Origin: Erythrobacter sp. WG
Lineage (GTDB): Bacteria > Pseudomonadota > Alphaproteobacteria > Sphingomonadales > Sphingomonadaceae
Reading direction: 5' to 3'
Assembly (NCBI RefSeq): GCF_026586795.1
Contig: NZ_JAPFGY010000010.1
Location: 1 to 64,000, forward strand
DNA length: 64,000 nucleotides
Shown here: piece by piece, positions 10,037 to 54,717 of the stretch
Numbering within the stretch: the stretch's first letter is position 1
How the letters are laid out: each line of letters opens with the position of its first letter
Made by a program: the position numbers and the translations under genes
The notes under the pieces: generated by a model
What the model was told of the DNA's origin: nothing
Databases searched by the model: none
What the model saw: the letters and a program-made list of their open reading frames with translations, nothing else

Positions 10037-10182
10037 CGAATACTGTTTTCTTTCTGGCGTTTTCAGTGAGGTCGAGGGTGATCTTAACGCAGAACGTCCC
10101 TGCGCGATCGGCCAGGGCCATACGTTCAAGACGTGCCTTCGAAAGTAGCGCAGGTTCCGCCTCTCACAAGAGGAGAGGACCG

Positions 10183-16907: not shown

Positions 16908-18077
16908 ATGACCGCCTCGATCACCTTCTTCCCCGTCGATAATGGCGACATGACCTTGCTGACCTTCGATAACGATCAGACACTGCTGATCGATATGCAT
17001 GTCCGCAAGGCTGCCGACAACGCCGACGACGATACGCCTGACGTCATGGCCGATTTGCGCAGCCGGTTGAAGCGCGACGCAAAGGGCCGGATGTTCGTCG
17101 ATGGCTTCCTGCTCAGCCATCCCGACAAGGACCATATCGGCGGACTTGAAACACATTTCCACCTCGGCCCGCCCGACGAGTGGAAGAAGGACGACGACAA
17201 AATCCTCATCCGCGAGATGTGGTCTTCGCCAGTCGTGTTCCGCCGAGCCAGCAAGACGCATACGCTCTGTGATGATGCCAAGGCATGGGCGAAGGAAGCG
17301 CGGCGCCGCGTTGCGCTGTATCGCGAGAAGGGCACCGCAACGATCGAAGGCGATCGCATCCAGATCATGGGTGAGGATGAGGACGGCAAGACTGATGACA
17401 TTCTTGCCATCGTGGTCAAGGCTGACGAACTGGTCACCAAGCTCAACCGCGTCGCGGCCGACACGTTCGAAGCCGGCCTCTTCGCACCCTTACCGCAGGG
17501 CGACGACGAGGAACTCGACGAGTTGCTCGCAAAAAATCGCTCGTCCGTGATCTTGCGCTTTTCCATCCGCGGCGGCGGCATCCCCGATAAGTGCCGCTTC
17601 CTCACTGGCGGCGATGCCGAAGTGGCGATCTGGGAGCGGCTGTGGAATAAGCACGGCGGCGATCGAGCCGACTGGCTGAGCTACGACATTCTCCAGGCGC
17701 CCCATCATTGCTCGTGGCATAGCCTGAGCTACGACAGCTACTCGGACTGTGGCGAAGACGCTGAAGTGTGCGAAGGGGCACGCAGCGCCCTTGCGCAGAT
17801 TCGCAAGGGGGCGATCATCGTAGCTAGCTCGAAAACGATCGATCCCGAGGATGCGGATCCACCCAGCGACCGGGCGAAGCGCGAATATATCTCGATCGTT
17901 GACGATGCGGCTGATCGCTTCCTCTGCGTGGCCGACGTCTGGAACGACGAGCAGCGGGCGCTGCAATATGATATCACCTCCAGCGGCGTTACCAAAACGG
18001 TCAAGACTGCTGCGAAGGCGGCGGTCGCCGCCCTCGGGATCGGCGCCACTGCCTCCCAGGCGCGTGCTCACGGGTGA
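16908..18077 (+). CDS. Metallo-beta-lactamase-fold protein of the Ub-like locus
   Basis: A 389-aa MBL-fold hydrolase of the ComEC-like type. Metal-site signatures are SHPDKDHIGG (His71, Asp73, Asp75, His76, with Asp replacing the second His of HxHxDH), TGGDA (Asp236) and APHHCSWHS at 264-272. There is no signal peptide or membrane segment, so it is cytoplasmic. The last 30 residues are an Ala-rich tail ending QARAHG. Its stop overlaps the E2-E1-JAB start (GTGA). MBL-fold proteins have been noted beside E2-E1-JAB genes in surveys of prokaryotic ubiquitin-like systems. It may be the nuclease/hydrolase effector, and the Gly-ending tail could be a conjugation site. Function is inference. Confidence 0.8.
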   Translation: MTASITFFPVDNGDMTLLTFDNDQTLLIDMHVRKAADNADDDTPDVMADLRSRLKRDAKGRMFVDGFLLSHPDKDHIGGLETHFHLGPPDEWKKDDDKILIREMWSSPVVFRRASKTHTLCDDAKAWAKEARRRVALYREKGTATIEGDRIQIMGEDEDGKTDDILAIVVKADELVTKLNRVAADTFEAGLFAPLPQGDDEELDELLAKNRSSVILRFSIRGGGIPDKCRFLTGGDAEVAIWERLWNKHGGDRADWLSYDILQAPHHCSWHSLSYDSYSDCGEDAEVCEGARSALAQIRKGAIIVASSKTIDPEDADPPSDRAKREYISIVDDAADRFLCVADVWNDEQRALQYDITSSGVTKTVKTAAKAAVAALGIGATASQARAHG

Positions 18078-20350: not shown

Positions 20351-21012
20351 TGGCTGACGGAAAAACGCTGAAGGAGCAGAATGCCGGGCTGATCCGCGCG
20401 GCGATGATCGGGCATATGGTAGCGTTCGCTTGGGTTGCCGGCGAGCCGCTCCGGCTCCTGAAAATGGATGGACCGTCGTTGGCGAGCCGCCTTGAGGCGC
20501 TGGCAGCGCCGGGGACGGCCGCCTTGGGACTGATCGTGATTGCTTCACTGATCCTGCTGGGCATAATCAATCCGAACTGGCGGGATCGCCTCATCTACTG
20601 GCGCTGGCGCAATCCTCTTCCGGGCTGTCGGGCGTTCACTCAGATCGGTCCGGCGAGCAGCCACGTCGATATGCAGCGATTGGCTGAAGAATTTGGGCCA
20701 CTGCCGACTGATGGCGCGGAGCAGAACCGGCTCTTCTATCGAATCTACCGCAACTTTCGGGACGAAGTGGGGGTGCTCGACGCGCACGGCAGGTATCTCG
20801 CGGCCCGTGACATCGGCACGATCAGCGCTTCAGTGATGCTGTTCCTGCCGTGGCTCGCTTGGTGGGCATCAGGCGAGACCGGGCGTGCGATTGTTTATGG
20901 CTTAGCGCTCATTGCGATCTATGCCTTCTGTGCTCTGGCAGCGCAGAACTACGGTTTTCGGATGGTGCAACACGTCCTGGCGTTGGCCTCGGCTGGCAGC
21001 CGCTCAGTGTAG
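20347..21012 (+). CDS. Four-helix membrane protein, candidate effector
   Basis: A 221-aa protein with two hydrophobic hairpins: segments near residues 17-33 and 57-75, a soluble middle of about 80 residues, then segments near 158-174 and 180-200. It overlaps the E2-E1-JAB stop by ATGA, so it is part of the same operon. Terminal membrane genes in bacterial immune operons are often pore-forming effectors that kill or arrest the infected cell; an anchor for the conjugation machinery is another option. No named domain is recognised. Confidence 0.65.
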   Translation: MMADGKTLKEQNAGLIRAAMIGHMVAFAWVAGEPLRLLKMDGPSLASRLEALAAPGTAALGLIVIASLILLGIINPNWRDRLIYWRWRNPLPGCRAFTQIGPASSHVDMQRLAEEFGPLPTDGAEQNRLFYRIYRNFRDEVGVLDAHGRYLAARDIGTISASVMLFLPWLAWWASGETGRAIVYGLALIAIYAFCALAAQNYGFRMVQHVLALASAGSRSV

Positions 21013-21369: not shown

Positions 21370-23337
21370 TCAGGCTGCTTCTTCGGTCACCTCATCGACC
21401 GCCGAATTCAAAATGTCGGCATCGGCCATCGTCGCCGCTTCGGAAGGAGCAGCGAATTTCATCAGGTCCGGGACCCAAGCGAGGGCACGCTCCTTGCTCC
21501 CCGCCTCGCCGATGAAGTTCCCCGAGAAGATCCGTTCGGCCGCGCTTGCGAGTTCGGACTTCTTCGAACCGGCATAGCGGGTCACCAGGTCCGGCCCGCC
21601 GACAGCGTCGAGCGCCTCCAGGATGCGCGCCTTCGGCACACGGTCGAAATAGTTCGCTGCGGTCGGCCGCCACCAATGCGCAGTTTCGATTTCGAGCAGA
21701 GAAGCAAGGGTCTCGTGGAGCGGAACAGAGCGCTCGCGCCCGAAGGCGAGGCTTGCGATAATTGTCCGCGACACGACATGGCCGAGCCATGCTGACCGCG
21801 CTTCCTCCGACAGCGCGCGAAACTGTATGAAGCGATCGACCTCGGTTTCGCCAGAGCGCCATGTTTCATCGAGTGACCCGACGAACTCAGCTATTGCTGC
21901 AGTCGCAGGTGCATCCTTGGCCTCGAAGCCAGAGACGGGGCCCGCCGCGACGGATCCGACAAGCGTTGAGGCTCTTTTCGCGCGCCAGTCATGCTGGTCG
22001 GCATCGGCGAGCGTGAAGACCATGAAGTCCAAAGCAAGAGCAGGGTTTTTGGCGAGGTGGACGGCAAGGATGTCCCGCCGCTGCATGGCAAGCTCGTCAA
22101 GCAACCGCTGCGAAAGCGCACTGCTCTTGGGCTTCGCTTGTCCCTCTTCAGCGACCGCTTCGATTGCGCCTTCGCCCTCATTCGAGAGCACAACATCGGT
22201 GTAAAACTGCGGGACGAGTTGCGGTTCTCCGCTGCGGGAGAGAACGAGAAAGGCGCCGGCGTCGGGCTTCAATTCCTCGGCCAGCACGGGAGTGCGTTCG
22301 TTGAGGGCACGTATAGCCTCATCGATCACCACGAGTTCCTTCTCGGCCTTCCCGATTTCTTCTTCGTCGCTTTCCTCATCTTCCAGGATGGCGGCCACGC
22401 GATCGTAGTCGGCTTCGAGCGCGGTCAGTTCCTGTGTTTCTTGTTCGGTCAGGGGGGCGGGCTCGGAGGGTAATCTGCGCAAGCTTCCGACGAGGTCGTG
22501 TCCGACGTAGTTGGAAAGTGTCGGCCGGACCCATCCAATCCCTAGTTCATTCGCCGTTCGGGCTGCGGCTTCTTCCATCGCCGCATGAGCCAGGTTCTCG
22601 AGCAGGCCGACGTCGATCCAGCTTTCGCTGGCATCATCATCGAAGAGCTCACGCTCGATGCGGCCCCCGGTGGCCAGGTAGGTGTCACGGCCGACAAGGA
22701 TGGCGCGCGGGTCGGAACCGCGAACAGAGGCGTCGAGCACCATGCGCCGGATTGTATCCGGCGTAATATGATACCACGCGTTCTGCAGCTCGGCGAACAC
22801 CTGTGCCTGACGATCGGTGTCGGAGATCGCGCCATAGGCTTTTGCCATGTCGAGCGTGATCTCGCCGGCTGCGAGCGCCTCGAAGATGTCAGGGGCGAGC
22901 GCAGCAAGCCGGAGCCGACCTTCGACAAAGCGGACGGTTAGGCCAAAGCGTCGTGCAACCTCTTCTGCGCTGGCACCCGCTTCGATGATCGCTGCGAAGG
23001 CCTGCGCTTCGTCTGCGGGGTTCATGGCGAGCCGCTGGAAGTTCTCTGCGAGGCTGGTTTCGCGCACTTCGCTCTCTTCGCCTTCGATCACCAGGCATGT
23101 GACCTCTTGATCGGGAGTGATTGCCCCATCAGCAGCGAGCGCTTGCAGCGCTGCTAGGCGGCGCCCGCCGGCCTCGACTTCGAATTTGCCACGCGCTGCC
23201 TTCCGAACGACGAGGTTTTGCAGCAAGCCGCGTGCAGCGATGTCAGCCTTGAGCTGTGCATCGGCTGCGGGATCGCTTGATTTGCGAACGTTGTTCGGAC
23301 TGGCGGCGAGCTTCTTGAGCGGGATTGATTGGATCAT
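21370..23337 (-). CDS. Long ParB/Spo0J-like DNA-binding protein
   Basis: A 655-aa protein. The N-terminal 110 residues are a ParB/Srx-type domain with GGRRLAAL at 57-64 and ETSLAENFQR around 93-102. A helix-turn-helix region follows (SAEEVARRFGLTVRFVEGRL). The long C-terminal region (200-655) is acidic and helical and is absent from the usual 300-aa ParB. Such long ParB proteins are typical of conjugative plasmids and ICEs of Sphingomonadales, without an adjacent ParA. It could promote element maintenance or act as a CTP-dependent regulator. A leader hairpin (23363-23380) and CAGGAGA site precede it. Confidence 0.82.
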   Translation of the reverse strand: MIQSIPLKKLAASPNNVRKSSDPAADAQLKADIAARGLLQNLVVRKAARGKFEVEAGGRRLAALQALAADGAITPDQEVTCLVIEGEESEVRETSLAENFQRLAMNPADEAQAFAAIIEAGASAEEVARRFGLTVRFVEGRLRLAALAPDIFEALAAGEITLDMAKAYGAISDTDRQAQVFAELQNAWYHITPDTIRRMVLDASVRGSDPRAILVGRDTYLATGGRIERELFDDDASESWIDVGLLENLAHAAMEEAAARTANELGIGWVRPTLSNYVGHDLVGSLRRLPSEPAPLTEQETQELTALEADYDRVAAILEDEESDEEEIGKAEKELVVIDEAIRALNERTPVLAEELKPDAGAFLVLSRSGEPQLVPQFYTDVVLSNEGEGAIEAVAEEGQAKPKSSALSQRLLDELAMQRRDILAVHLAKNPALALDFMVFTLADADQHDWRAKRASTLVGSVAAGPVSGFEAKDAPATAAIAEFVGSLDETWRSGETEVDRFIQFRALSEEARSAWLGHVVSRTIIASLAFGRERSVPLHETLASLLEIETAHWWRPTAANYFDRVPKARILEALDAVGGPDLVTRYAGSKKSELASAAERIFSGNFIGEAGSKERALAWVPDLMKFAAPSEAATMADADILNSAVDEVTEEAA

Positions 23338-25997: not shown

Positions 25998-27206
25998 CTA
26001 TGCAGCCTGGCGCTTTTTCCCTTCGCGCAGCTCATCGAGGTAGTCGCTCCACCACTGCGCCATTCGAACCCGCTCGTCCCAATGCTTGCCGCGATGATAG
26101 ATGCCGCGCACGACGTTGCTGTCGCCATGTGCGAGCGCCCGTTCGATCGCATCAGGATTCCACAGGCCCGATTCGTTGAGGAAGGTTGAGGCGGTGGCCC
26201 TGAGGCCATGCGCGGTCAGCTCCTCCTTCGAATAGCCCATGCGCCGGAACGCTGCATTGAGCGTGTTCTCGCTCATCGGGCGGATGCCGCTGCGGGCCGA
26301 GGGAAAGACGTAGCCGTCGGTCCCCAGCATGCTGGCAAGCTCGGTGAGGTAGCCGACCACCTGCTTGGAGAGCGGCACCGCATGCGGCCGGCGAGCCTTC
26401 ATCTTCCCAGCGGGGATCTTCCAGACTCCATCCTCAAGATCGATCTCGCGCCACTCGGCGTGGCGTAGCTCGCCCGGCCGCACGAACACGTGCGGCGCGA
26501 TTTGGAGGGCGTATTTGGTGACCAGGTAGCCGGTGTAGTCATCGATGGCGCGCAAGAGACCGCCGAGCTCCTTTGGCTCGAGGATCGCGGCATAGTGCTG
26601 CGCCCGCGGCGTCACAAGCGCGCCCTTTAGCATCGCTGTGGGATCGGATTTGCAGCGGGTGGTGGCAACGCCGTAGCGAAACACGCGCCCGGCAAACGAC
26701 CGACACTTCTTCGCCGTTTCGTGCTTACCCGTCGCCTCGAGCCGCTTGAGGGGCGCCAGCACTTCGAAGGGCTCGATGTCATGGATCGGGCGATTACCGA
26801 TGGCTGGCGTCAGCTGCTCGAGGAAGTAGTTCGCCTTAACAAGGGTTGCCTGGGCAAGCCCGTTCTTGACCATCATCTGCTCGATGTATTCCCGCGCCAC
26901 CGCCTCGAAGGTCTGGGCCGACAGGAACTCATCGCGGATCTTCTTCTTGCGCTTTTCGAAGGCGGGGTCGCCACCTTCGGCGACCGAATGCCTTGCCGCA
27001 TCGGCGGCATTGCGCGCCTGCTTGAGATTGATCTCGGGGTAAGGGCCGATCGCAAGCTTCTTCTCGACGTTGCCGATCCGGTAGCGGAATCGCCACAGCT
27101 TGCCGCCTGACGGGGTGACCTCGATATACAGGCCGCGGTGGTCGGCGACCTTGTACGACTTGTCCTTTGGCTTTAACGTCCGAAGCCTGTTTTCGGTCAG
27201 CGCCAT
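25998..27206 (-). CDS. int: Tyrosine site-specific integrase (P4-type)
   Basis: A 402-aa phage-type integrase that inserts and excises the element. It has the N-terminal DUF4102-like arm-binding domain (ALTENRLRTLKPKDKSYKV), a SAM-like core-binding domain (100-190) and the catalytic domain with Arg in RPGELRHAEW, Lys in KMKARRPHAVPLS, HGLR and the nucleophile Tyr in VVRGIYHRGKHWDER. It lies 167 bases from the 3' end of tRNA-Leu, reading away from it, the arrangement of P4-like integrases that use a tRNA 3' end as attB. This gene defines the right end of the element. Confidence 0.92.
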   Translation of the reverse strand: MALTENRLRTLKPKDKSYKVADHRGLYIEVTPSGGKLWRFRYRIGNVEKKLAIGPYPEINLKQARNAADAARHSVAEGGDPAFEKRKKKIRDEFLSAQTFEAVAREYIEQMMVKNGLAQATLVKANYFLEQLTPAIGNRPIHDIEPFEVLAPLKRLEATGKHETAKKCRSFAGRVFRYGVATTRCKSDPTAMLKGALVTPRAQHYAAILEPKELGGLLRAIDDYTGYLVTKYALQIAPHVFVRPGELRHAEWREIDLEDGVWKIPAGKMKARRPHAVPLSKQVVGYLTELASMLGTDGYVFPSARSGIRPMSENTLNAAFRRMGYSKEELTAHGLRATASTFLNESGLWNPDAIERALAHGDSNVVRGIYHRGKHWDERVRMAQWWSDYLDELREGKKRQAA

Positions 27207-27373: not shown

Positions 27374-27460
27374 TGGTGCCCAGAAGAGGACTCGAACCTC
27401 CACGCCCTTGCGAGCGCCGCCACCTGAAGACGGTGCGTCTACCAATTCCGCCATCTGGGC
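27374..27460 (-). tRNA. tRNA-Leu(CAG), integration target
   Basis: On the reverse strand the acceptor stem GCCCAGA/TCTGGGC, the long variable arm expected for Leu, anticodon loop TTCAGGT (anticodon CAG) and TTCGAGTCC T-arm are all present, followed by an encoded CCA (27374-27376). The gene is intact, as expected when an element restores the tRNA 3' end on integration. The likely att core is within its 3' half, adjoining the integrase. Confidence 0.95.
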
Positions 27461-27705: not shown

Positions 27706-28632
27706 CTAGCCGAGCTGCAGGAAGAATGCCTCGCGCTCGCGGCGCAACGCGTCCGGCGGCATGGCGGCAAGGCTGTCCAATTCGGCGCGCAGGGCGAGCG
27801 CGAGGCGCTTGACCGTCTCGGCGGGATCGCGATGGGCACCGCCGCGCGGTTCGTAAACGATGCGGTGGATGACCCCGAGCTTCAGAAGATCGCCCGCCGT
27901 CACCTTCATCGCCTCGGCCGCGGTCTCGGCCTGGACGGCGCTGCGCCACAGGATCGAGGCGCAGCCCTCCGGCGAGATCACCGAATAGACCGCGTGCTCG
28001 AACATCAGCACCCGGTTCGCCGCCGCGAGCGCCACCGCGCCGCCCGAGCCGCCCTCGCCGATGATCACCGCAATCAGCGGCACGCCCAGGGCGAGGCACG
28101 CTTCGGTGGAGCGGGCGATGGCCTCGGCCTGCCCGCGCGCCTCGGCATCGACGCCGGGGAAGGCGCCGGGGGTGTCGACCAGCGTCACCACCGGGAGGCC
28201 GAAGCGGTCGGCGAGCTCCATCAACCGGATCGCCTTGCGATAGCCTTCGGGCCGCGCCATGCCGAAATTGTGGCGAAGGCGCCCCGGGGTGTCCTCGCCC
28301 TTCACATGGCCGATCACCATCACCCGCCGCCCCTCGAAGCGCGCGAAGCCGCCGATGATCGCCTGGTCCTCGCCGAAGGTGCGGTCCCCGGCGATGGGCA
28401 GGAACTCGCTGAACAGTCCCTTCACCAGCCGCTCGAAGCGGGGGCGCTGCGGGTGGCGGGCGACGAGGGTGCGCTGCCAGGGGGTGAGGCGCGCATAGGT
28501 GTCCTCGAGCAGCTTCGCCGCCCGCATCGCCAGCATCCGCGCCTCCTCGGTCCCTTCCGCATGGGCGGCGAGTTCGGCGGCGTGCTTGTCGAGCGCCTCG
28601 ATCGGCTTCTCGAAGGGCAGGTACTGGATCAT
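27706..28632 (-). CDS. accA: Acetyl-CoA carboxylase carboxyltransferase, alpha subunit
   Basis: A 308-aa AccA. It transfers the carboxyl group from biotin to acetyl-CoA, making malonyl-CoA, as an alpha2beta2 complex with AccD. Family signatures are the N-terminal helix [48 protein letters not shown] and [12 protein letters not shown]. It follows mcr by 16 bases and closes the pcs-mcr-accA operon, so malonyl-CoA supply is tied to malonyl-CoA reductase. It may be the only copy and also serve fatty acid synthesis; that cannot be told from this window. Confidence 0.93.
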
Positions 28633-28648
28633 GCCCCCTACCCCCGCC

Positions 28649-31600
28649 TCACACCGTCATCGACATGCCGCGGTAGATCCGAGCGCGGTAGCGCGAATCC
28701 TCCGCGTCAGGCAGCGGCGCGCCGACCAGCAGCACCGCGCGGGCGAAGCGGCGCACCTCTTCGAGATGCTCGTCGAGATCGCGCGGCTCTTCCGATTGCA
28801 CCCGGCGGGTGAGGTTGATCTGGTTGACCGGCACATCATGCACCAGCCGCTCGTTCTCCACGGCCAAGGTGGCCGTGAACGCGTGGAGCGTGGTCTTGAT
28901 GAAGTTCGCGAGGGCAAAGGCCGGGGACTTGTCGCCCATCGGCACATCCGGCGAAGTCAGCACCAGCTGGCAATCATCGTAGAGGGACGCGCGGCGGCTG
29001 ACGCGGAAGTGGTGGGTGAGGTTGCACTCCACGACCTTGCGGAACTCCTCCGGGGTGAGCGGATCGGCGGTGTCGAACAGCTTGCCCGGCAGCGCCTCGA
29101 AGGGGGTGGACAGGATCGTCGTCGGCTTGCCCCAGGCCATCAGCGCCTCGTCCATCGCGGCCTCGATGTCAGAGGTGACGACCAGCGAGGTGAGCGCCTC
29201 GGCGGTCTCGCGCTCGAGCTGCGCCTTGATCGCCTCGAAGCCCTCGGCGGTGCGGGTGATCAGCACCACGTTGGCCGCATGGCAATCCTCGATGAAGGCA
29301 CGCGCGGTTTCGGCGAGGTAATCGGCGAGATGTTCGCCGATGATCCACACGGTCTTGCCGCGCATCTGGTCGAGCCGTTCCTGCTTCGGGCTTCCGAACA
29401 GCTCGCGCTCGGTCGTCGAGCGTTCGACGGAGAGCCCGCCCGAGGGCATGAAGGTCTCGCCCGAGACGGCACGGTCGGCGAGGAAGAAGACGGTCGCCTG
29501 CGCGACGTCGTGCTCGGTCGGCATCTTGCCGAGGTAGAGCTTGGAGAGCACCCCGGTGCCGACCTTGTTGGCCTCGATGGCGATCTTGTCGGCGGGAAGG
29601 AAGGGCGCGTCCTCGGGCGGCACGCGCAGCAGCCAGTCGCCGTCGCTCTCGGCCGTGGCCGGGCGATCGTTCCACTCGGGCGCGTCGAGGAACAGGCCCG
29701 CCTGCCTGAGGCGCGCCACCAGCGCGGCGGCGATCTGCGGGGTCAGGAGATACTGGTCCCAGGTGCAGGTGCCGTCACCCTCACGCGCGCAGGCCAGCGC
29801 GAGTTCGCGCAATTCGCGCGGGTTGTTGGTGTCGTGGCTCATCTTGACGGTGTCGTTGCGGGCGAGCCGCGCCAGCACCGCCTCGACCCGCACCCCGCGC
29901 CGGATCGCCTTGATCGCGGCGGCGTGGACGGCATTGAGGCGTTTGTTTTCGAGGATCAGCTTGCCGCGCCGCTCGAACAGCCCCGGCTTGCCCCCGGTGC
30001 CCGACAGGCGATCGCCATCGACCGGCCCCGGCGCAATCGCGTTGAACTGCACCTCCGGCCCGAGATAGCGCGCCATCGATTCCACCATCGCGCGCTGCCC
30101 GGCCTTGGACACGGCATAGTCGGCGCGGTTGGGATAGGCCACCGCGAGATACTTCTCGCCCCCGAAGTAGCTCGAAACATTGAGGATGTAGCCCGAGCCT
30201 TGCGCCTTCATCAGCGGCGCGACGTGGTGCATCAGGAAGTAGTTCGACACGAGGTTCGCATCGAGCGTGTAGTTCCAGGCATCGACGGTCATGTCGACGA
30301 CCATGTCCTCCGCGCCCGCCACGCCTGCGTTATTGATGAGGTAGTCGATCCGCCCGAAGGCCTTCAGCGTCGCGTCGACCGCGCCCTTCAGGCTCTCGAA
30401 ATTGCTGACATCGACATTGGCGAGGGTCTGCACCCGGCGCTCGACACCGGCAAAGCCGATGTCCTCGAGTTCGGAGACGATCCGCGCCCGCGCCACCGCA
30501 AGTTCGCTTTCGCGGCGGGCGACCATCATGACCTTGCCGCCCGCGAGCGCCAGCAGCCGCGCCACCTGCCCGCCGATCCCGGCCGAACCGCCGGTGATCA
30601 GCGCGACCTTGCCGAGGTGCAGCCCGGTGATGTTCTCGGAGAAGCCGGGCATCGCCTTCCTCGCTCCGGTCGCCTCGCCGATGTTCGCCGGGACATAAAG
30701 CGTGATCTCGCCGAGCTTGCTTTCCTTCAAGAGGATGCGCGCGGCATGGCCCGCGGTGAAGCGGATGTTCCCGGCTTCGGCATTGGTAAAGCGCACGATC
30801 TGGTTGCCCCACTCCGCCTGCCGGCGGCGGCCGTGGGCGGTGTCGATCGCGCTCTCGTCGCGCCAGATGCGGATGAGCTGTTCCGTGGCGGCGCGCTGGA
30901 TGTGATTGTAGACGTTGCCCTTCCCGTCGTCCTTGTGGCTGACGAAGACGAAGCGCGGCGGCTGGAGCAGATTATCGTGACGCTTCCAGTAGCGGCTCAT
31001 GGTCCGCGCGAGCGCCATGTTGCCGGCCAGTTCGGCATCCATCAGCGCCTCGACCACACCGTCACCCGCTTCGGCGAGCGCACCGGCCAGCTCGCCCGCG
31101 CCCAGCGCGGGAAGGAACAGCGCGCCGCTGACGGGGGTGCCGTGGCGGGTATATTCCTCCAGCGCCTCTTCCATTCCCGCCGGGTCCTTGCGGTTGAAGC
31201 GCATGATGCTGAGCTTGTCGGACAGGCCCATCGCGGCGCAGCGCTTCTCGGCGATGGCGACGTCGGCGGCGCGCGGCAGGCCGAGCAGGACCTGCGCCCC
31301 GCAGGCAAGCTGCACCTGCGCGATCTCGAGCGCCTCCTCCCAGTCGTCGCCCGCCGCGATCAGCACGGCAAGGCCGGTGCCGTCCATCGAGCGCATCGTG
31401 GGCCGCGCGAGATAGGTCGCGCGCTCCTCCTTGCGCACGGTCATGCCGTGGGTGACCTCGAAATCGTGGCCGTTGTAGGCAGCGGATTCATCGCTGCCCA
31501 GGAAGACGCAGGTGGTGGCGATGTCCTCGGGCGTGGGGAAGGTCTTGGCCTTCGCGTTGCCGCCTGTCGCGCGCTCAAGGCTCATCATGTCGAAGAACTG

Positions 31601-32347
31601 GTTCGCGGTGGTCCCCGCCTCGTCCCCGCGCGCGGTGTCCATCGCGGCGAAGACGGTGCGGATCCGCTCGCTCTCGATCGGGCCGGGGTAGACGAGGTTC
31701 ACCCGGATGCCCTTGGGTCCGAGCTCGAGGCTCAATTCGCGGCTCCAGGCGTTCATCGCCGCCTTGGGGACGACATAGGCGGCACGCGCAAAATAGGGCG
31801 TGCGGCTGAAGATGGTCGAGACGTTGATGATCGAGCCGCCCTCGGGGATGTGCTCGGCCGCGACCCGCGCGACGTTGAAGGCGACGCCGAAGATGTTGCG
31901 CAGGGCATCGCCCACGGTCTCGCCGTCGGTGCTGCCGCGCTTCCGGAGCTCGGCTAGCTCCTCCGCCGAAAGCGGCAGGTTCTCGATCGGCTGCTTGGGG
32001 CCCGCGCTCCCGGCGTTGTTGACCAGAATGTCGATCCGCCCGAACTGCTTCACCACCTCACCGATCGCCGCCCGGACCGAGGCGATGTCGCCGCCGTCGA
32101 GGGCCACCGAGGCGAGCCGCGAGGGGTCCGCGCCGGTCGCCTTCAAGAGCGCCTCGGCCGCCGCCTGCGTGCGCTCCGGGGTGCGGCCCGTCATCACGAC
32201 GGTTGCACCTTCTGCAAGATAATGCGTGACGATATGCCCGCCGAGATTGCCGGCCGCGCCGGTCACGACCGCGATCTTGCCAGCAAGGCGGCCCGGGACA
32301 TCGCCCTGGAGGGCAGGCGCAGCAGCAGCGGCTTTGGACTTCGCCAT
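28649..32347 (-). CDS. mcr: Bifunctional malonyl-CoA reductase
   Basis: A 1232-aa protein made of two SDR halves, the layout and length of the Chloroflexus enzyme. It reduces malonyl-CoA with NADPH to malonate semialdehyde and then to 3-hydroxypropionate. The N-terminal half has TGAAGNLGG at 29-37 and the Tyr191-x3-Lys195 pair; the C-terminal half has TGGSAGIGG at 585-593 and Tyr744-x3-Lys748. By analogy with Chloroflexus, the C-terminal half does the first reduction. The ATG at 32347 is preceded by GGAGAG. It sits between pcs and accA on the same strand. A different large SDR fusion is possible but unlikely given the neighbours. Confidence 0.92.
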
Positions 32348-32459
32348 AGGACTCTCCTCACACAATGACCGCGAAAGAGGCACCGCCTCGCTTCGCTTCA
32401 GGCTTCGAACGATCTCTGGGGAGGAGAGATGGAAAGTTTCAAAAATCGCAACGCTCGAG

Positions 32460-35400
32460 TCAAGCCTCCGGTTCCGTGTCCGAGGGCGCCGCGACCTGCG
32501 CTGCCCCCTGCGCGGCCCACGCCTCGAGCAGCGCGTCGCGACTCCTGAGGCCCATTTCGGGCAGCGCATGGTTGACCACGTAGGTCGATCCGGTGTGCCG
32601 GTTGTCCCACATCGCCTGGTGCGCCTCCGGAAGGCCGTCCCACGGCACGACCTCGGGCTCGGTCACTTCGAGGAGCCCGGCGGCGATCATGTCGTTCATC
32701 CGCGCGACCTCGTAGGCGTTGCACAGGTGCGTGCCGAAGATCTGCGCGGTCGGCATGTAGATGCGCCGCTGGCGGGTCCACACCTGGGGTGCGTAGAAGG
32801 TGAAGCGGCAGCCGGTCAGGTCTTCCGCAAAGATTACCCGCCCCGTGAAGGGCTTCACCAGCGAGGTCGAGATGCCGAGCGTGTCCTGCCCGGCCCGCTC
32901 GAACACCAGATCGGGGCTGCCGCGCGGGTTGTCGGGCGAGCGCAGGATCTTGCCCACGGCCGAGCCGAAGGGCTTCATCACCCGGTCCTGATAGTCGCGC
33001 ACCGCCGCCTTGAAGACCTCGATATCGGCCTTGGCATCGGGCAGGCGCGGCATGGTGTCGGGCCAGTGGAAATTGGCACCCTCGCGGCGGCGGATCGATT
33101 CGAGGGAGACGATCCCCTCGATCGCGTCCTCGAGGCCCAGCGATTGCAGAAACTCGCGCTGCCCGTCAGTGGTGGTGGCGATCACGCTGCGGGCGTTGAA
33201 GCGGCGGGCGGCCTCGATCATTTCGAGGCCCGTCTCGTCGAGCAATTCGGAGGAACCCGGCCCGTAGAAGATCAGCACCGCCTCGCCCCCGCGCAGGGCC
33301 GCGCGGCGGAGCATCTCTTCGGGCGAGGCCGTGCCCGGCTTGCCCATGAAGCTGAAATGGTAGCCCGACGACGCGCCATAGAAAGCGAGCGTGCCGCCCT
33401 CGGCAAGGAGCTGGAACGAGCGCGGGAAGGCGGTCTCGCCCGCATGGCTCACCACGTAGTCGGCGAGCTTGCCGCCGTTCAGCGCCTTGTATGCCTCGAT
33501 CAGCGGCGCGCCTGCGGCTTCCCACGCGATGGCCTCGGCCTTGTCCTCGGGCACGACGGTGTAGAGGTCGGCGAAACGCGCATCCTTGCGGTTGATCGCC
33601 CCGACCGCGCCCTGCACCTTGGTGATGAACTGCGCGCGTTCCTCCGAGGAAACGAGCCCCGTCACCTGCAACCCGGTCCGCACCGAGGAACGCAAAGCAT
33701 CAAGCCCCGTCCCCGTCGCTGCGCCTTCGACGAACAGCGTCCGCCCCGGTGCAATCTGCAAGGTGGTGAACAGGCAGCGCGCGATGGTGCCGAGGTTCAG
33801 CACATAGCTCCCCGCCTGCTCCAGCGTGAGGTCGGGCGGCACCTTGTGCATCTGCGGCGCCTGCACGGTCAGGAACTGCGCATGGCTCCCCGTCTCGGTC
33901 TCGTAGCCCTGGATGGAAAAGTCCGCATACATCGGGTCGTTGCCGACCAGCGGGCTGAGCAGGTCATTGGTCCCCGAATAGACCGTCACCAGATCGCCGA
34001 CCTTGATCCGCCCCTGCGCCCGCGTCTCTGACCCGAGCGCGGCAACCAGCGCGATGCCGCCGGAACCGGTGATCTGCACGTCCTCCTCATGCGCATCGAA
34101 GGGCGAGACGGGGATGCCGGTCAGCGCCCAGATGTCGTTGAAGTTGACCTCGCTGGTCAGCATATAGAGCAGCGCCTCGTTGGGCGCGGGCTCGGGCACC
34201 TTGACGATCAGCTCCTTCTCGTGGCTCGCCGGCGGGCCGAAGCGGGGCTGGCCGGTGTCGGGATCGCGGGCGATGCCGAAGGCATATTGCCACGGCGGGA
34301 TCGGGGTGACGCCGGGATAGAAGGGCGCGCCGACGGGCAGCAGATCGCCCGCCGCCTCAAGCGCCTGCGCGCGCATTTCGTGCTCGGCATCGATCCACAC
34401 GCCGTCGCGCCGCACCGGGAGCGGCGGGGCGACCTTGTCCATGAATTGCCGGATGCCGGTCTTGCCGCCCTCGGGATCGACGATCGCCTCGGCGAACAGC
34501 CGCGCCTCGCGCTCGGTGCCGGCGGTGATGCCGTGCTCCAGCCCGGTGCGCACCGCGTCGAGCGCGCGCGCGCCCGCGACATCGCGGCCCGCCCATGCGA
34601 GCTGCCTGAGGATGCGCTGCAGAAACGCGTCCTCCAGCACCGCATCGAGATCGACCTCCGACGCCTCCTCCCAGCGCACCGTCGCGCCCTGCCTTTCCGC
34701 GAAGGCGCAGCCGAGCGCACTCGCAGGTCCGCGCCTCACGAAATCCCGCACCGCCGCATGGGCTGCGGAGAGCGCGTCCTGCGCGCCGTCCACCAACTCG
34801 TCGACGAGGCCGATATCGGCAGCGGCCTCCGCCGTGATGCTCCGACCGCCCAGAATGAGATCGAGCGCATCGCGCACACCCTCCGCCCCGCGCCGGTCGG
34901 CGAGCAGGCGCGGCAGGCGCTGCGTGCCGCCATAGCCGGGGAGCAATCTCAGCCGGATCTCGGGCTGGCCGAAACGCGCAACGGGCTCGGCGATGCGGTA
35001 ATGGCACGCGAGCGCGAATTCCATGCCCCCGCCGAGCGCCACGCCCTGCACCGCCGCGACGCAGGGCTTGTTCATGCTCTCGATGGTGCGGAAGGCGAGG
35101 TGCGCGTTGTTGGGGAGCACCATGGCCTCGTCGACCGTGTGGATCTCCTCGAGCATCTGGCGGATGTCGGCCCCCGCGACGAAGGACGAGGTGCCCTCGC
35201 CGGTGAACACCACCGCCACGACGCTGTCATCGCGTGCCAGCGTGGAGGTGACCAGCACCAGCTCGTCGATGGCGCGTTCGTTCAGCGCATTGACCGGCGG
35301 GTTGGTGACCGTGACGGTCGCGACCTGCTTGCCGGGCGCGACGGTATTGTATTGCACAAGGAAATAGCGGTGCCGGTCGAACAGCGCCTGCTCGTCGCTC

Positions 35401-37967
35401 ATGCGCTGCTTGCGCTGCCAATCGGCGATGACGCGCTTGAGTTCATCGAGCGCCTCGGGGTTGCGCAAGGTGGTGACGTCGCCGACATCCTCGCCCACCA
35501 CCAGCGCACGGACCATGCGCCGCATATACTTGCCGCTGCGGGTCTCGGGGAACTGCGAGACCTCGATGAAGTCCGCCGGGACCGCGACCGCGCCCTTTTC
35601 GGTGCGCACCAGATCGAACAGGCGGCGCTTGTCCTCATGCGTGAGCTTGCGCCCTGCGACAGGCACCACGAAGGCGAGCGGGGTCAGCCCCTTCTCGCGG
35701 TGCGGGGCGCCGACCACCAGCACGTTGCCGACCGGCGAATCCGGCGCGAGCGCCTTGTCGCGCAGCACCGCGCCTTCGATTTCTTCCGTGCCCATGCGGT
35801 GGCCCGAGACGTTGATCACGTCATCGCTCCGGCCATGCAGCGAGAACGATCCGTCGGGATGCTGGATCGCGAAGTCGCCTTGGGTATAGGCCCAGGCGCC
35901 CTTCCAGCGCTTCCAGTAGCCCTCCTCCCAGCGCTGGGCATCGCCGCGCCATTCCGGAGCGACGCGGCCATCCGCAACCTTGAAGCCCGCGATGTCGCCC
36001 CAGATGGTGCGCGCGAGGTAGGGGTAAGGCGCGGCGATCACGATTTCGCCCTTCTCGCCCGTTTCGGCCTTGCGCCAAGGCACGCCGCCGTCATCCGCCC
36101 GCGCGAAGGGGGCGACAGCCCCCGAGCGCGCGCCCTCGCCCGCCTCATCCTCGACCCACACATCGCCGACGATCCAGGGGAGCGGATAGGCATGCGCGTC
36201 GGGGCGCAGGGGAAAATCGTCATTCGCGAACATATGCGTCCACGCGATCCCGCCGTGCTCGGTCGCCCAGTAGGAGTTGATGTAGCGCGGGGTCACGTGC
36301 TCCATCCCGAAGGCCTGCACGCTCGGCGAGACAGGCTCGGCGCAGAAAGTCGCCACGCGCAGACCGCTCATGTCGTAGCGTTCGAGCTCGGCAAGGTTCG
36401 CCGGGTCGGACATGATCGACTTGAGGAACGTCACCCCGGCCTTGAAGATGCGCACCTTGTGCCGCTCGATCATCGAGGCGAAGCGGCCTGCGTGGGGGAA
36501 CACGGGAGAGCCTTCGGAGACCAGCGACGTCACCCGCGTCATCAGCGGCGCGCAGATCAGGTAGCTCTGCCCGGTGATCCAGCCCGGATCGGCGACCACG
36601 AACAGCGTGTCGCCGGGGCGCGCGTCGAAGCTCGCCGCCATCGTCTCGGCAACGCCCGCCGCATAGCCGTGGGAGTGGACGATACCCTTGGGCTTGCCGG
36701 TGCTGCCCGAGGTGTAGATGAAGAACATCGGGTAGTCGGCATCGACCGGCATCGGTTTCGAGGACGCCCAGATCGCGCGCACGAAATCGGCGTCGGGCAG
36801 CGCCATCAGCTCGGCTTCCGACTGCACCGCGAAGCCCGCTGCGCGGGCCTTCTCGAGCACCGTGGCGAAGGCCGCGTCGGTCAGCTCGTGGCTCCAGCGA
36901 TCGCGCTCCTCGCGCCAGATCATGTCGGGCTGGTTGGTGTGGCGAACCACGATCACCGCCTCGACCCGCGGCGGTAGCGTCACGAGGCTCGAGGCGATCG
37001 CGATCCGCACCCGCGCCGCATCCGCGCTGGTGATGCGGCCCTCCCCGCCCAGTTGGATCAGCGCCTTGCCCACGCCGCGCATCACGTCCGAGCGATCGAC
37101 CGTGATCTCCCCGGCCAGCGCCTCGCGCACGGCGGCAAGGATCGTCGCGTGGTCTTCCGCCGCCAGATCGAGATCGAGCCCGCCAAGGATGTCCAGCGCC
37201 GTCGTCACCGGCACGAAGTTGTCGAGCGCGGGGTCGGTGTAGGCGTTCTTGAAGGCGGCGACCTGCGCGTTCCGGTAGCTCCCGTCGCTGGTCACGATCA
37301 CCCGCGCCGCCGTGTCGGCGATGCGGTCCGAGAGGGTCTTGTCGGAAAAGCCGCCGAACACCGCCGTATAGACGACGCCCAAGCGCTTGGCCGCCTCGGT
37401 CCAGTAGATCTGCGGCACGATGCTCGGCATGTTCAAGGCCATGCGGTCGCCCGCCTTGAGGCCTAGCGCCTCCAGCGCCACGGCGCACTTCGCCACCTCC
37501 AGCAGCAAACGCTTGCGGCTGATCGTGAAGCAGTCGATCGGGGCGCCCTTGCCGCCGTTCGCGCTCATGTCCCAGCGGTCGCCCTCGAAGACCAGCGCCG
37601 CCTCGTCGCCGTGGCCGGCGAGCACGTGACGGTCGAGTTCGGAGAAGGCGGCATTGGTGCGCCCGCCGACGAACCAGCGCCAATGCGGCGGATTGCTGCC
37701 GTCGAAACCGGTGTGCCAGGGGGTGAAGCCTTCGGGCAGATCGGGCGCAACCGGCGCCGCGCTCGCGCCGTCCCAGCCGCGCCAGCGCCCGTCCGCGCCC
37801 TTCGCGAGCCACGCGCCCTCAGCGCCCACCTCGGCCACGAACCAGTGCATGTTGCGCGCGGCGATAGCGCCGTGGAAGGCGCCCGGATCGGCGAGCGCGG
37901 CGGCGCGCATCGCCTCCCAGTCGGCGCGGGTGCGCACCGGATTGGCCTGCAGGTCGTCGCCCTTCAC
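32460..37967 (-). CDS. pcs: Propionyl-CoA synthase (trifunctional)
   Basis: About 1835 aa, with three enzymes in a row. Residues 40-870 are an acyl-CoA synthetase with IYTSGSTGKPKG near 417-427 and PETRSGKYMRR. Residues 880-1180 are an enoyl-CoA hydratase with VQGVALGGGMEFALA. Residues 1300-1830 are an MDR-type acrylyl-CoA reductase with VEGAATGTGLDA. Together they convert 3-hydroxypropionate, CoA, ATP and NADPH to propionyl-CoA while channelling acrylyl-CoA. Length and order match Chloroflexus propionyl-CoA synthase. The start is uncertain: I used the GTG at 37967 just before the conserved region; the frame is open to an ATG at 38108. Confidence 0.92.
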   Translation of the reverse strand: MKGDDLQANPVRTRADWEAMRAAALADPGAFHGAIAARNMHWFVAEVGAEGAWLAKGADGRWRGWDGASAAPVAPDLPEGFTPWHTGFDGSNPPHWRWFVGGRTNAAFSELDRHVLAGHGDEAALVFEGDRWDMSANGGKGAPIDCFTISRKRLLLEVAKCAVALEALGLKAGDRMALNMPSIVPQIYWTEAAKRLGVVYTAVFGGFSDKTLSDRIADTAARVIVTSDGSYRNAQVAAFKNAYTDPALDNFVPVTTALDILGGLDLDLAAEDHATILAAVREALAGEITVDRSDVMRGVGKALIQLGGEGRITSADAARVRIAIASSLVTLPPRVEAVIVVRHTNQPDMIWREERDRWSHELTDAAFATVLEKARAAGFAVQSEAELMALPDADFVRAIWASSKPMPVDADYPMFFIYTSGSTGKPKGIVHSHGYAAGVAETMAASFDARPGDTLFVVADPGWITGQSYLICAPLMTRVTSLVSEGSPVFPHAGRFASMIERHKVRIFKAGVTFLKSIMSDPANLAELERYDMSGLRVATFCAEPVSPSVQAFGMEHVTPRYINSYWATEHGGIAWTHMFANDDFPLRPDAHAYPLPWIVGDVWVEDEAGEGARSGAVAPFARADDGGVPWRKAETGEKGEIVIAAPYPYLARTIWGDIAGFKVADGRVAPEWRGDAQRWEEGYWKRWKGAWAYTQGDFAIQHPDGSFSLHGRSDDVINVSGHRMGTEEIEGAVLRDKALAPDSPVGNVLVVGAPHREKGLTPLAFVVPVAGRKLTHEDKRRLFDLVRTEKGAVAVPADFIEVSQFPETRSGKYMRRMVRALVVGEDVGDVTTLRNPEALDELKRVIADWQRKQRMSDEQALFDRHRYFLVQYNTVAPGKQVATVTVTNPPVNALNERAIDELVLVTSTLARDDSVVAVVFTGEGTSSFVAGADIRQMLEEIHTVDEAMVLPNNAHLAFRTIESMNKPCVAAVQGVALGGGMEFALACHYRIAEPVARFGQPEIRLRLLPGYGGTQRLPRLLADRRGAEGVRDALDLILGGRSITAEAAADIGLVDELVDGAQDALSAAHAAVRDFVRRGPASALGCAFAERQGATVRWEEASEVDLDAVLEDAFLQRILRQLAWAGRDVAGARALDAVRTGLEHGITAGTEREARLFAEAIVDPEGGKTGIRQFMDKVAPPLPVRRDGVWIDAEHEMRAQALEAAGDLLPVGAPFYPGVTPIPPWQYAFGIARDPDTGQPRFGPPASHEKELIVKVPEPAPNEALLYMLTSEVNFNDIWALTGIPVSPFDAHEEDVQITGSGGIALVAALGSETRAQGRIKVGDLVTVYSGTNDLLSPLVGNDPMYADFSIQGYETETGSHAQFLTVQAPQMHKVPPDLTLEQAGSYVLNLGTIARCLFTTLQIAPGRTLFVEGAATGTGLDALRSSVRTGLQVTGLVSSEERAQFITKVQGAVGAINRKDARFADLYTVVPEDKAEAIAWEAAGAPLIEAYKALNGGKLADYVVSHAGETAFPRSFQLLAEGGTLAFYGASSGYHFSFMGKPGTASPEEMLRRAALRGGEAVLIFYGPGSSELLDETGLEMIEAARRFNARSVIATTTDGQREFLQSLGLEDAIEGIVSLESIRRREGANFHWPDTMPRLPDAKADIEVFKAAVRDYQDRVMKPFGSAVGKILRSPDNPRGSPDLVFERAGQDTLGISTSLVKPFTGRVIFAEDLTGCRFTFYAPQVWTRQRRIYMPTAQIFGTHLCNAYEVARMNDMIAAGLLEVTEPEVVPWDGLPEAHQAMWDNRHTGSTYVVNHALPEMGLRSRDALLEAWAAQGAAQVAAPSDTEPEA

Positions 37968-38196
37968 GGGCAGCTCGGTGACAGAAATGGCCTCGTCCCC
38001 CAATGTGGCGTGGCCCGCAGCGCGTATCCCCCCGCACGGCGGCACCGGAGCAAAATTACACGTCCTGCGGCGGCTCGGCAAGAATATGCCAAACCGCCGC
38101 ACGTCCACACAACGCGGCCTGCCCGGAAGGGTTCCCCTGCCCCGGCCGATCTTACCGGAGGGGCCCGGCTAACGGTTTGTCAACCATGCAACCCCT

Positions 38197-40446
38197 ATGA
38201 GCAACGACAGGGGCAGGTCCGCTGCGAGCGGTCGGCCCGGCACGAGGACCAGTATGGCACTTGGGTTTCGCAGATCGGCGCGCGAGGACACTCGCGACAG
38301 CAACAAGGGGCATAGCGCCCCGACGGGCGCACGGCCCGATCGCAGCGCCGTGCTCGGCGAGGTCGAGGAACTCGGCATCGGGATGTTCTGGGCGACCGAC
38401 GCCGAGGACAAGCTGACCTTTCTTTCGCAGCGCGCGCTCGCCGATCTCGGCGTCGAGGCCGACACGCTGATCGGCAGCCCGGTCGTCAAGCTCTTCCAGG
38501 ACGTCGAGGACGAACACGCCACCACCGCGCAGCGCAACCTCGCCTTCAAGCTGCGCGCCCGCTCCAAGCTCGACGAGCAGATCGTGCAGGTCACCACCGC
38601 GCGCGGCCACACCCGCTGGTGGCGGATCAATGGCCGCCCGCTGCTGGATGCGCAGGGCAATTTCCAGGGCTATCGCGGCAGCGCCGTCGATATTTCGGCG
38701 CAATATGCCTACGAGACCCAGGTCGCGCGCCAGTCGCAGGTCGACGAGCTGACCGGGCTTGCCAACCGCCGCAAGCTCAAGGAACGGCTGACCGCGATGC
38801 TCGCCGCCTTCCGGGTGTCCCAGCGGTCCTGCGCGCTGATGATGCTCGATCTCGACCGCTTCAAGCAGGTCAACGACACGATGGGCCACCCGGCTGGCGA
38901 CGAGCTGCTGAAGCAGGTCGCCTCCCGCCTGCAATCGATCGTCAAGGATGCCGGCGAAGTCGGTCGCCTGGGCGGCGACGAGTTCCAGGTCCTGCTGCCC
39001 GACATGGACGATCGCGGCGCCCTGGGCGAGCTTGCCAACCGCATCGTGCAATCGATCTCGCAGCCCTACCAGATCAACGGCCGGCGCGCGATCATCGGCA
39101 CCTCGGTCGGCATCGCCATCGCCCCTTACGACGGGGTGGAGGCCGACGAACTGACGCGGGCGGCCGATATGGCGCTCTATTCCGCCAAGGAAACGCGCAG
39201 CGGCATCTTCTGCTTCTTCACCAGCGAGCTGCGCGATGCGGCCTCCAAGACCGCCAAGATCGGCGACCGCCTGCGCGACGCGGTCGACAAGGGGGACCTG
39301 AGGCTTGCCTACCAGCCGCTGGTCAATCCCGAGACCAACGAGGTCAAGTGCTTCGAGGCGCTGCTGCGCTGGCACGACGAGGAAGAGGGCAACATCAGCC
39401 CGGCCCACTTCATCCCCATCGCCGAGAACGACGATCTCATCATCAAGCTGGGCGAGATGGCGCTGCGCCAGGCCTGCACCGATGCGATGGCCTGGCCCGA
39501 AACGGTCCGTGTCGCGGTCAACGTCTCGGCCAAGCAGTTCGTGCGTCCCGGCTTCAAGAAGACGGTGGCAGGCGCGCTCGAAGCTTCGGGCCTGCCGCCG
39601 CAGCGGCTCGAGCTCGAGATCACCGAGAGCGTGTTCGTGGGCGACCTCGAGAGCGTCGATGCGATCTTCCGCGATATGAAGAAACTCGGCGTGCGCCTCG
39701 CGCTCGACGATTTCGGCACGGGCTATTCCTCGCTCGGCTATCTGAAGCACGGTCATTTCGACAAGATCAAGATCGACCAGAGCTTCGTGCGCGGCTGCAC
39801 CGAGAACGGCGACATCAACCCTGCGATCATCGCCGCGATCGTGGCCCTGGCCAAGGCGCTGGGGATGGAGACGGTCGCCGAAGGGGTCGAGGCGATGGAC
39901 GAGCTCCAGCTGGTGCGCGAACGCGGCGCCGACCTGGTGCAGGGCTACATTTTTTCCAAGCCCATGACCCAGGACGAGGTGATCGCGCGGTTCGAGGGCG
40001 AGAATGCCGAATTCAAGCCGAGCGGACCGCCGCGCCACCGTTCCGAGCGTATCACCATCTTCCGCAAGGTCGGGTTGATCCACGAGGACCACTATTACGA
40101 CGTGATCCTCAGGAACTTGTCCAAGACCGGCGCGCGCATCAATGGCCTTGCCGGGGTGCCGGTGGGCACCGACGTGGTGCTCGATCTGGGCCACGGGCAG
40201 CTGGTGGTGAGCAAGGTGGTCAACGCCACCGAGAACAGCCAGGGCCTCAAGTTCGAGACCAACCTCATTTCCGACGGTACCGGCGGGTTCATGACCCGGC
40301 ACCGCATCTCGCCCTATTCGCTCGCCGAGGCGGGCATCCCGCTGGCGGCGCTGGGCGCGGGCGCCTTCCCGCTCGCCAAGTGGCGCGAGGCGAACAAGAG
40401 CGTGCCCAAGTTCATCCAGCTGGAACTGAGCGCGCCGGGGCTTTAG
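38197..40446 (+). CDS. PAS-GGDEF-EAL-PilZ signalling protein
   Basis: A 749-aa cytoplasmic c-di-GMP protein. A PAS-like sensor lies at 50-165, then a diguanylate cyclase domain with intact GGDEF (259-263), a phosphodiesterase domain with EALLRW (EAL at 387-389), and a C-terminal PilZ-like domain (RHRSERIT, then NLSKTGARI) that binds c-di-GMP. Both catalytic motifs look functional. The PilZ tail could give feedback from the product. There are no membrane helices. It is divergent from pcs. The ATG at 38197 has no strong ribosome-binding site; Met20 is the next candidate. Confidence 0.88.
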   Translation: MSNDRGRSAASGRPGTRTSMALGFRRSAREDTRDSNKGHSAPTGARPDRSAVLGEVEELGIGMFWATDAEDKLTFLSQRALADLGVEADTLIGSPVVKLFQDVEDEHATTAQRNLAFKLRARSKLDEQIVQVTTARGHTRWWRINGRPLLDAQGNFQGYRGSAVDISAQYAYETQVARQSQVDELTGLANRRKLKERLTAMLAAFRVSQRSCALMMLDLDRFKQVNDTMGHPAGDELLKQVASRLQSIVKDAGEVGRLGGDEFQVLLPDMDDRGALGELANRIVQSISQPYQINGRRAIIGTSVGIAIAPYDGVEADELTRAADMALYSAKETRSGIFCFFTSELRDAASKTAKIGDRLRDAVDKGDLRLAYQPLVNPETNEVKCFEALLRWHDEEEGNISPAHFIPIAENDDLIIKLGEMALRQACTDAMAWPETVRVAVNVSAKQFVRPGFKKTVAGALEASGLPPQRLELEITESVFVGDLESVDAIFRDMKKLGVRLALDDFGTGYSSLGYLKHGHFDKIKIDQSFVRGCTENGDINPAIIAAIVALAKALGMETVAEGVEAMDELQLVRERGADLVQGYIFSKPMTQDEVIARFEGENAEFKPSGPPRHRSERITIFRKVGLIHEDHYYDVILRNLSKTGARINGLAGVPVGTDVVLDLGHGQLVVSKVVNATENSQGLKFETNLISDGTGGFMTRHRISPYSLAEAGIPLAALGAGAFPLAKWREANKSVPKFIQLELSAPGL

Positions 40447-54704: not shown

Positions 54705-54717
54705 GTCGGTGCCTCCC

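Follow-up and report, generated by a model that had tools for sequence, protein, structure and literature searches.

In Erythrobacter sp. WG (Sphingomonadaceae), the 64,000 nucleotides analysed here (RefSeq assembly GCF_026586795.1, contig NZ_JAPFGY010000010.1, positions 1 to 64,000; hereafter the window) carry an operon, pcs-mcr-accA, that encodes propionyl-CoA synthase (PCS), bifunctional malonyl-CoA reductase (MCR) and an alpha subunit of acetyl-CoA carboxylase (AccA). The pcs-mcr pair tracks phototrophy: among the relatives examined, it is found almost only in genomes with photosynthesis genes. Judging from the sequences, the three genes probably make up a functional first half of the 3-hydroxypropionate bicycle, which would be used as a light-powered anaplerotic route. 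The operon itself is of a known kind; the breadth of the link between pcs-mcr and light and the capture of accA by the operon are new, pending a wider survey of the literature. The parts of the operon are as follows.

37968 to 38196, minus strand: intergenic region, presumed promoter of pcs-mcr-accA from the gene layout, with a divergent GGDEF-EAL gene at 38197
32460 to 37967, minus strand: pcs, trifunctional propionyl-CoA synthase (3-hydroxypropionyl-CoA ligase, dehydratase, acrylyl-CoA reductase), from the 6EQO alignment, domain order and motifs
28649 to 32350, minus strand: mcr, bifunctional malonyl-CoA reductase (N half malonate semialdehyde reductase, C half malonyl-CoA reductase), from 6k8v/6k8s and 8hi4/8hjw
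27706 to 28632, minus strand: accA, second copy, acetyl-CoA carboxylase carboxyltransferase alpha subunit of the mcr-linked group, from equivalog cut-offs and tree

Co-occurrence with photosynthesis genes

Within the family, a sample of 397 genomes was searched with this MCR and with the reaction-centre subunits. A true MCR orthologue is present in 39 of them (64-100% identical, the next listed match scoring 88 bits; in G022 mcr is split across two contigs), and puf matches were obtained in 77, reduced to 76 when one below the cut-off (taken as G118, best E 7e-4) was dropped. Both are present in 37 genomes, mcr without puf in 2, puf without mcr in 39 and neither in 319 (Fisher p 2e-28); pufLM is thus found in 37/39 genomes with mcr versus 39/358 without it. 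Counted by genus, the same table reads 11, 1, 20 and 64 (p 9e-6), and when mcr was shuffled within genera the joint genomes averaged 30.7 with a maximum of 36, none of 20000 shuffles reaching 37.

Beyond the family, named genomes were scanned with a PCS alignment, and 198 stretches were confirmed to encode a PCS relative; the best 80 were retained and their flanks inspected up to 10 kb only (1.4 kb for L168). MCR adjoins PCS in 60 of these 80, the other 20 comprising nine contigs that end too soon and eleven with a flank that lacks MCR. An earlier note on this DNA, made from its letters alone, had described both genes as reported from Erythrobacter NAP1 and few other proteobacteria, which understates their spread. 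The puf test covered 48 of the best 80 genomes and was positive in 16/16 sphingomonads and 20/32 others. Outside Sphingomonadales, 17 of the 18 tested genomes with a PCS-adjacent MCR are puf-positive, and their record titles place them in Aerophototrophica, Phyllobacteriaceae, Azospirillaceae, Rhodopila, Burkholderiales, other Betaproteobacteria, Steroidobacteraceae, Nevskiaceae, other Gammaproteobacteria, one Gemmatimonadetes and others. The eleven tested genomes without flank MCR (six haloarchaea, three Firmicutes, UBA2562 and L160) are puf-positive in L160 alone; among short-contig genomes, L174 and L177 have puf and L167 does not. Among 385 genomes sampled across the class, PCS was found in 5 (Erythrobacter sp. 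WG included) and puf in 26: besides our genome, G518 and G719 are puf-positive and G507 and G519 puf-negative, with MCR beside PCS in G518 alone. Over both samples, 2/13 distinct genomes with PCS and no flank MCR are puf-positive, namely L160 and G719 (G519 adding a puf-negative genome, and G507 being UBA2562). On a 73-row PCS tree, puf requires 3 changes (64 tested rows) and MCR adjacency 2; tree-based independent pairs for MCR adjacency against puf number 2, too few contrasts for a sign test.

The PCS genes that stand without MCR in the flank bear on a different explanation, in which 3-hydroxypropionate or acrylate (as released, for instance, by dimethylsulfoniopropionate breakdown) is taken up from outside the cell and PCS is the working step. 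Such genes occur in Aneurinibacillus, Paenibacillaceae and haloarchaea, where this use is plausible, and organic-substrate assimilation is proposed for part-pathways in Actinobacteriota in the available text of Garritano 2022 (PMC9802188). For the operon considered here we nevertheless find uptake unlikely: the main phototroph clade pairs MCR with PCS in 58/59 rows, and an acetyl-CoA carboxylase subunit would be superfluous for 3-hydroxypropionate uptake.

Three further observations concern the PCS and MCR genes themselves. Loci L168-L171, L175, L178, L155, L158 and L173, from haloarchaea and Aneurinibacillus/Paenibacillaceae, encode a near full-length fused PCS, with no bifunctional MCR match in the fetched flanks and no pufLM. 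A plasmid search gave 29 records; the 20 of them that were listed include matches to the tRNA-Leu stretch and, in three from Natribaculum, short PCS-like pieces. In L104 (Sphingomonas psychrolutea, near codon 450) and L153 (a Steroidobacteraceae metagenome-assembled genome, MAG, near codon 965), MCR comes in two slightly overlapping pieces, through a frameshift, an assembly error or a real split.

It could also be that pcs-mcr is functionally unconnected with light and accompanies puf because the two travelled as linked DNA. A linkage of this kind exists in an alphaproteobacterial MAG (G518, identical to L161; JANQPL010000008, loci L094/L095), where MCR of the pcs-mcr pair lies one open reading frame from pufM, which is followed by pufL, bchY, bchX, bchC, crtD, crtB, bchO and bchD; PCS and PufM distances also correlate (r 0.49, 45 genomes), the value for PCS and MCR being r 0.93. 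In the 3.31-Mb draft genome of Erythrobacter sp. WG (58 contigs), however, there is no linkage of the operon, on contig C1, to puf or bch genes, pufL and pufM being on contig C2, and in the family at large mcr and pufM lie on separate contigs or, in the 11 genomes where they share one, from ~62 kb (G134, G272) to 2.4 Mb apart. A comparison of 18 photosynthesis-cluster proteins with the fetched flanks gave matches in L161 and, via carotenoid desaturases, in L112, and in no others. The nearest neighbours of PCS and PufM frequently differ, and for the 19 genomes in which one AccA was presumed to be the housekeeping copy, PCS follows AccA (r 0.78, partial 0.73) better than PufM (0.52, partial 0.35). 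Because mcr and pufM are separated and PCS follows AccA over PufM, plain hitchhiking on the photosynthesis cluster fails to explain the pattern; we consider linked travel quite improbable and attribute the pattern to joint retention under selection more than to joint transfer.

Predicted enzymes and proposed role

The three genes are co-directional on the minus strand (27706-37967), with 109 bp between pcs and mcr, 16 bp between mcr and accA and no inner stops in any of the three frames. Residues 60-1867 of the PCS frame (32460-38108, 1882 residues) match 25-1842 of the 1850-residue chain 6EQO with 2919 bits, a structure that we take to be PCS of Erythrobacter NAP1, and a family scan gives the PCS family order of adenylation, crotonase and MDR reductase domains. 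The most plausible start is GTG 37967, which the earlier note had also chosen and of which we are unsure; the alternatives are ATG 37910, the sole ATG giving a long PCS frame and 7 codons downstream of where the 6EQO alignment starts, or a GTG further upstream. In the MCR open frame (28649-32569), 6k8v aligns from about the residue at ATG 32350, most likely the start of a protein of 1233 aa; 6k8s is near-identical across the C half (both chains being presumably MCR structures of Erythrobacter (Porphyrobacter) dokdonensis), and the full-length chains 8hi4 and 8hjw, presumably Chloroflexaceae bifunctional MCR, also align. AccA (308 aa) exceeds the cut-offs of NF004344 (420 bits vs 357) and TIGR00513 (359 vs 319) and holds a GEGGSGG stretch. 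The full-length genes in a single-strand cluster with small gaps that the earlier note had described are thus confirmed by coordinates, frames and alignments.

The same note had held that inactivated catalytic residues would speak against a working pathway; on alignment, the motifs taken as catalytic are intact. MCR carries one SDR Tyr-x-x-x-Lys pair per half, Y192xxxK196 (invariant in 44/44 aligned sequences) and Y745xxxK749 (45/45), and PCS residues K813, E983, E1003 and T1418-G-T-G (numbered from GTG 37967) are invariant in 45/45, their catalytic roles being presumed from family knowledge. Judged from ratios of nonsynonymous to synonymous substitution rates against six orthologues each (PCS 0.086-0.158; MCR 0.095-0.146; AccA 0.109-0.231), all three genes are under purifying selection. 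Erythrobacter (Porphyrobacter) dokdonensis DSW-74 (L123) has the same pcs-mcr-accA order (PCS 91%, MCR 93%, AccA 90% identical) and pufLM, with no difference of kind seen. Erythrobacter sp. NAP1 (L124) likewise has pcs and mcr side by side in a genome with pufLM, but its PCS and MCR are 70% and 60% identical and its flank has no accA match.

In the route that we propose, malonyl-CoA would come from acetyl-CoA carboxylase, one of whose alpha subunits would be this AccA; MCR would reduce malonyl-CoA with two NADPH to 3-hydroxypropionate; PCS would activate, dehydrate and reduce the latter to propionyl-CoA; and propionyl-CoA carboxylase, epimerase and mutase would yield succinyl-CoA. In net terms, acetyl-CoA, two bicarbonate, three NADPH and ATP would give a C4 unit. 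The capacity to turn acetyl-CoA plus CO2 into propionyl-CoA, which the earlier note had put forward, is indeed predicted from the intact enzymes and from the outlet genes that it had suggested looking for: contig C19 groups a pccB-like carboxyltransferase, methylmalonyl-CoA mutase (1194 bits vs cut-off 876), bioB (biotin synthase) and a pccA-like biotin-carboxylase gene, the pccB and pccA names reflecting family resemblance below equivalog cut-offs and the C19 context. The photosynthesis genes that it had also suggested are those on C2.

The most likely role is CO2-adding anaplerosis combined with an electron sink, powered by light; the sequences show the genes, their integrity, the outlet genes and the co-occurrence, and from these we infer the flux direction, the light dependence and the electron-sink use. 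The cost in ATP and NADPH would pay mainly under photosynthetic electron flow, so that the module would be kept in phototrophs and be rare in their non-phototrophic relatives, and since isocitrate lyase is present, spending reductant for carbon gain fits light. What aerobic anoxygenic phototrophs use light for beyond ATP is an open question, for which the tie to the reaction centre names a concrete, testable candidate route. The idea that an aerobic phototroph co-assimilates CO2 in this way has been published before: Porphyrobacter sp. ULC335 and NAP1 are reported with key enzymes of the 3-hydroxypropionate bicycle, and for ULC335, where the bicycle genes are higher by day, CO2 co-assimilation is proposed (PMC10674011). 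The main text of that paper, as available, lacks 'malonyl', 'propionyl' and 'acetyl-CoA carboxylase', so that the genes are not named there. According to the available text of Garritano 2022 (PMC9802188), the bicycle occurs in Gemmatimonadota MAGs and in Burkholderiales MAGs for which photosynthesis is predicted, and mcr and pcs had previously been detected in Alpha- and Gammaproteobacteria. Our literature search, with most subscription journals outside its coverage, returned no survey linking mcr or pcs to pufLM in Sphingomonadales and no mention of an operon accA.

Two other uses of the enzymes have to be weighed. Since MCR and PCS stop at propionyl-CoA, this could be the end product, destined for odd-chain fatty acids or for a storage polymer containing 3-hydroxyvalerate; poly(3-hydroxybutyrate-co-3-hydroxyvalerate) has a role in haloarchaea. 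One phototroph of the family, G219 (locus L049; 99% complete, 2.2 Mb), has pcs-mcr-accA yet no methylmalonyl-CoA mutase match, which would fit this explanation. A mutase match is nevertheless present in 38/39 mcr genomes of the family (outside it, those of G785, G788 and G791 are weaker or partial), and the pccB-like, mutase and pccA-like genes stand together here, making propionyl-CoA a distinctly unlikely end point. The second possibility is the complete autotrophic bicycle, which the earlier note had not claimed. Its first-half enzymes, including bifunctional MCR, are present as in Chloroflexus aurantiacus, whose PCS is trifunctional. Elsewhere, Burkholderiales MAGs are reported to pass the study's completeness threshold for the bicycle, and two Gemmatimonadota MAGs to have every one of its genes (Garritano 2022, PMC9802188, available text). 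Unlike in Chloroflexus, no clear malyl-CoA lyase is found here: the genome encodes three PF03328 proteins, which resemble CitE, HpaI/GarL and RipC and all score below curated cut-offs, none reaching that of a malyl-CoA lyase (mct and meh, for mesaconyl-CoA C1-C4 transferase and mesaconyl-C4-CoA hydratase, were not searched). The genome thus looks to hold half of the bicycle, the second cycle is not supported, and a complete bicycle in this organism is most improbable; the route is most likely used without autotrophy.

The proposal of a light-powered anaplerotic route has to face several observations that weigh against it: (i), the two mcr-only genomes of the family, G190 (88% complete) and G022 (67%), both incomplete drafts, have no pufLM match, nor does L147, a 2.0-Mb Steroidobacteraceae MAG of unstated completeness with mcr, and L160 and G719 are phototrophs that carry PCS with no flank MCR; (ii), 39/76 puf-positive family genomes lack mcr, which means that mcr is dispensable for phototrophy; (iii), the 450 bp scanned upstream of pcs contain 0 exact TGT-N12-ACA sites (PpsR-type); (iv), G219 is near-complete and has mcr but no mutase match; (v), isocitrate lyase is encoded in the genome (PRK06498, 1061 bits vs 446) and, across 78 genomes, 14 exceed the TIGR01346 cut-off and 62 more match more weakly, mostly with frames of ~550 aa like that of Erythrobacter sp. 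WG; (vi), RuBisCO, of which this genome has no match, does not anti-correlate with mcr, PF00016 being over the cut-off in 9/38 mcr genomes (6 above 440 bits) versus 3/41 puf-positive genomes without mcr (2 above 440 bits) and in 0/1 for G719. With isocitrate lyase present, a role as the sole acetyl-CoA assimilation route was rejected for this genome, and the pathway is probably a choice, not a need; likewise, a simple substitute for the Calvin cycle was considered and rejected from the RuBisCO counts. In the sphingomonad G140, a RuBisCO large subunit gene (C1:3789352-3790275) lies ~12 kb from mcr.

The operon-borne accA

The genome has two accA genes, the operon copy and one on contig C27, which are 64% identical. 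The earlier note had rightly placed an AccA subunit in the cluster; that it is a second copy with a history of its own had escaped it. AccA lies near MCR in 38 of the best 80 loci, directly behind it in 37 and ~2 kb off in L134, and record titles identify the loci that carry it as sphingomonad, the exceptions being Aerophototrophica (L114) and L118 (Alphaproteobacteria is all that its title says). In a tree of 76 AccA sequences, 25/27 mcr-linked copies form one group (support 83/89, not starred), leaving outside a long-branched G173 copy and the G072 copy; the latter, 2 kb off, clusters with the free accA of G140, a genome of the same genus, and is therefore probably native.

Among 79 genomes searched, four of one genus (G030, 100% complete; G113, 99%; G219, 99%; G256, 82%) show a single accA, the mcr-linked one, and the incomplete G022 (67%) likewise has the mcr-linked accA only. 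The free accA of their genus mate G173 groups with those of G038, G250, G101 and G284, from other genera, and a constraint joining the four linked copies to the group of the G173 free copy was rejected (approximately unbiased test, p-AU 0.020), in a test devised after viewing the tree. These sequences suggest that the operon accA likely replaced the housekeeping copy in that one genus. The single-accA genomes are also a natural hint that the operon-borne AccA is a competent carboxylase subunit. A specialisation of AccA was tried and rejected: at the 88% level, the 25 linked and the 49 free AccA sequences differ in a single column (K to R).

Joining these strands, we propose that pcs-mcr is an accessory module of phototrophy that adds bicarbonate, consumes NADPH and pays only with light; that selection has kept it in anoxygenic phototrophs of the Alpha-, Beta- and Gammaproteobacteria and in at least one Gemmatimonadota, whereas lineages without a reaction centre lost it or never retained it; and that Sphingomonadales captured accA, in one genus displacing the housekeeping copy, so that fatty-acid synthesis and the CO2-adding route would share one operon-encoded carboxyltransferase subunit. 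To this combined proposal we give about an even chance.

Upstream region and neighbouring genes

PpsR operators were considered as a general feature of the operon and rejected, exact TGT-N12-ACA sites standing upstream of pcs in 2/35 loci only. A palindrome, GGCAATAATATTGC, occurs upstream in 3/35 loci at up to 2 mismatches and in 0/2134 background windows: in L048, L055 and L054 (0, 0 and 2 mismatches), from two genera, it lies 74-95 bp upstream of the aligned start and is a possible operator candidate. It was not found upstream of pcs in Erythrobacter sp. WG and, being missing here and picked after the sequences had been seen, is kept as an observation only. The GGDEF-EAL gene (38197-40446) divergent from pcs also adjoins pcs in L041 and L042, of the same genus, and is unmatched in the remaining family loci that were fetched.

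Past accA and across tRNA-Leu(cag) (27374-27460), the segment 1849-27460 is probably an integrative element, and no att repeat of the 3' end of this tRNA was found within the window. The element encodes:

1849 to 4776: TrwC-like relaxase
4835 to 7309: TrwB-like coupling protein
10066 to 12021: serine recombinase
21370 to 23337: ParB-like protein
25998 to 27206: tyrosine integrase

Inside it, 16908-21012 is a candidate anti-phage 6A-MBL system:

16908 to 18077: MBL-fold protein (416 bits vs cut-off 220)
18074 to 20350: E2-ThiF-JAB fusion
20347 to 21012: unassigned frame

On the other side of the operon, 53278-56787 encodes a TonB receptor that is nearest to vitamin B12 receptors (below cut-off) and, next to it, a periplasmic binding protein; methylmalonyl-CoA mutase uses B12 as its cofactor.

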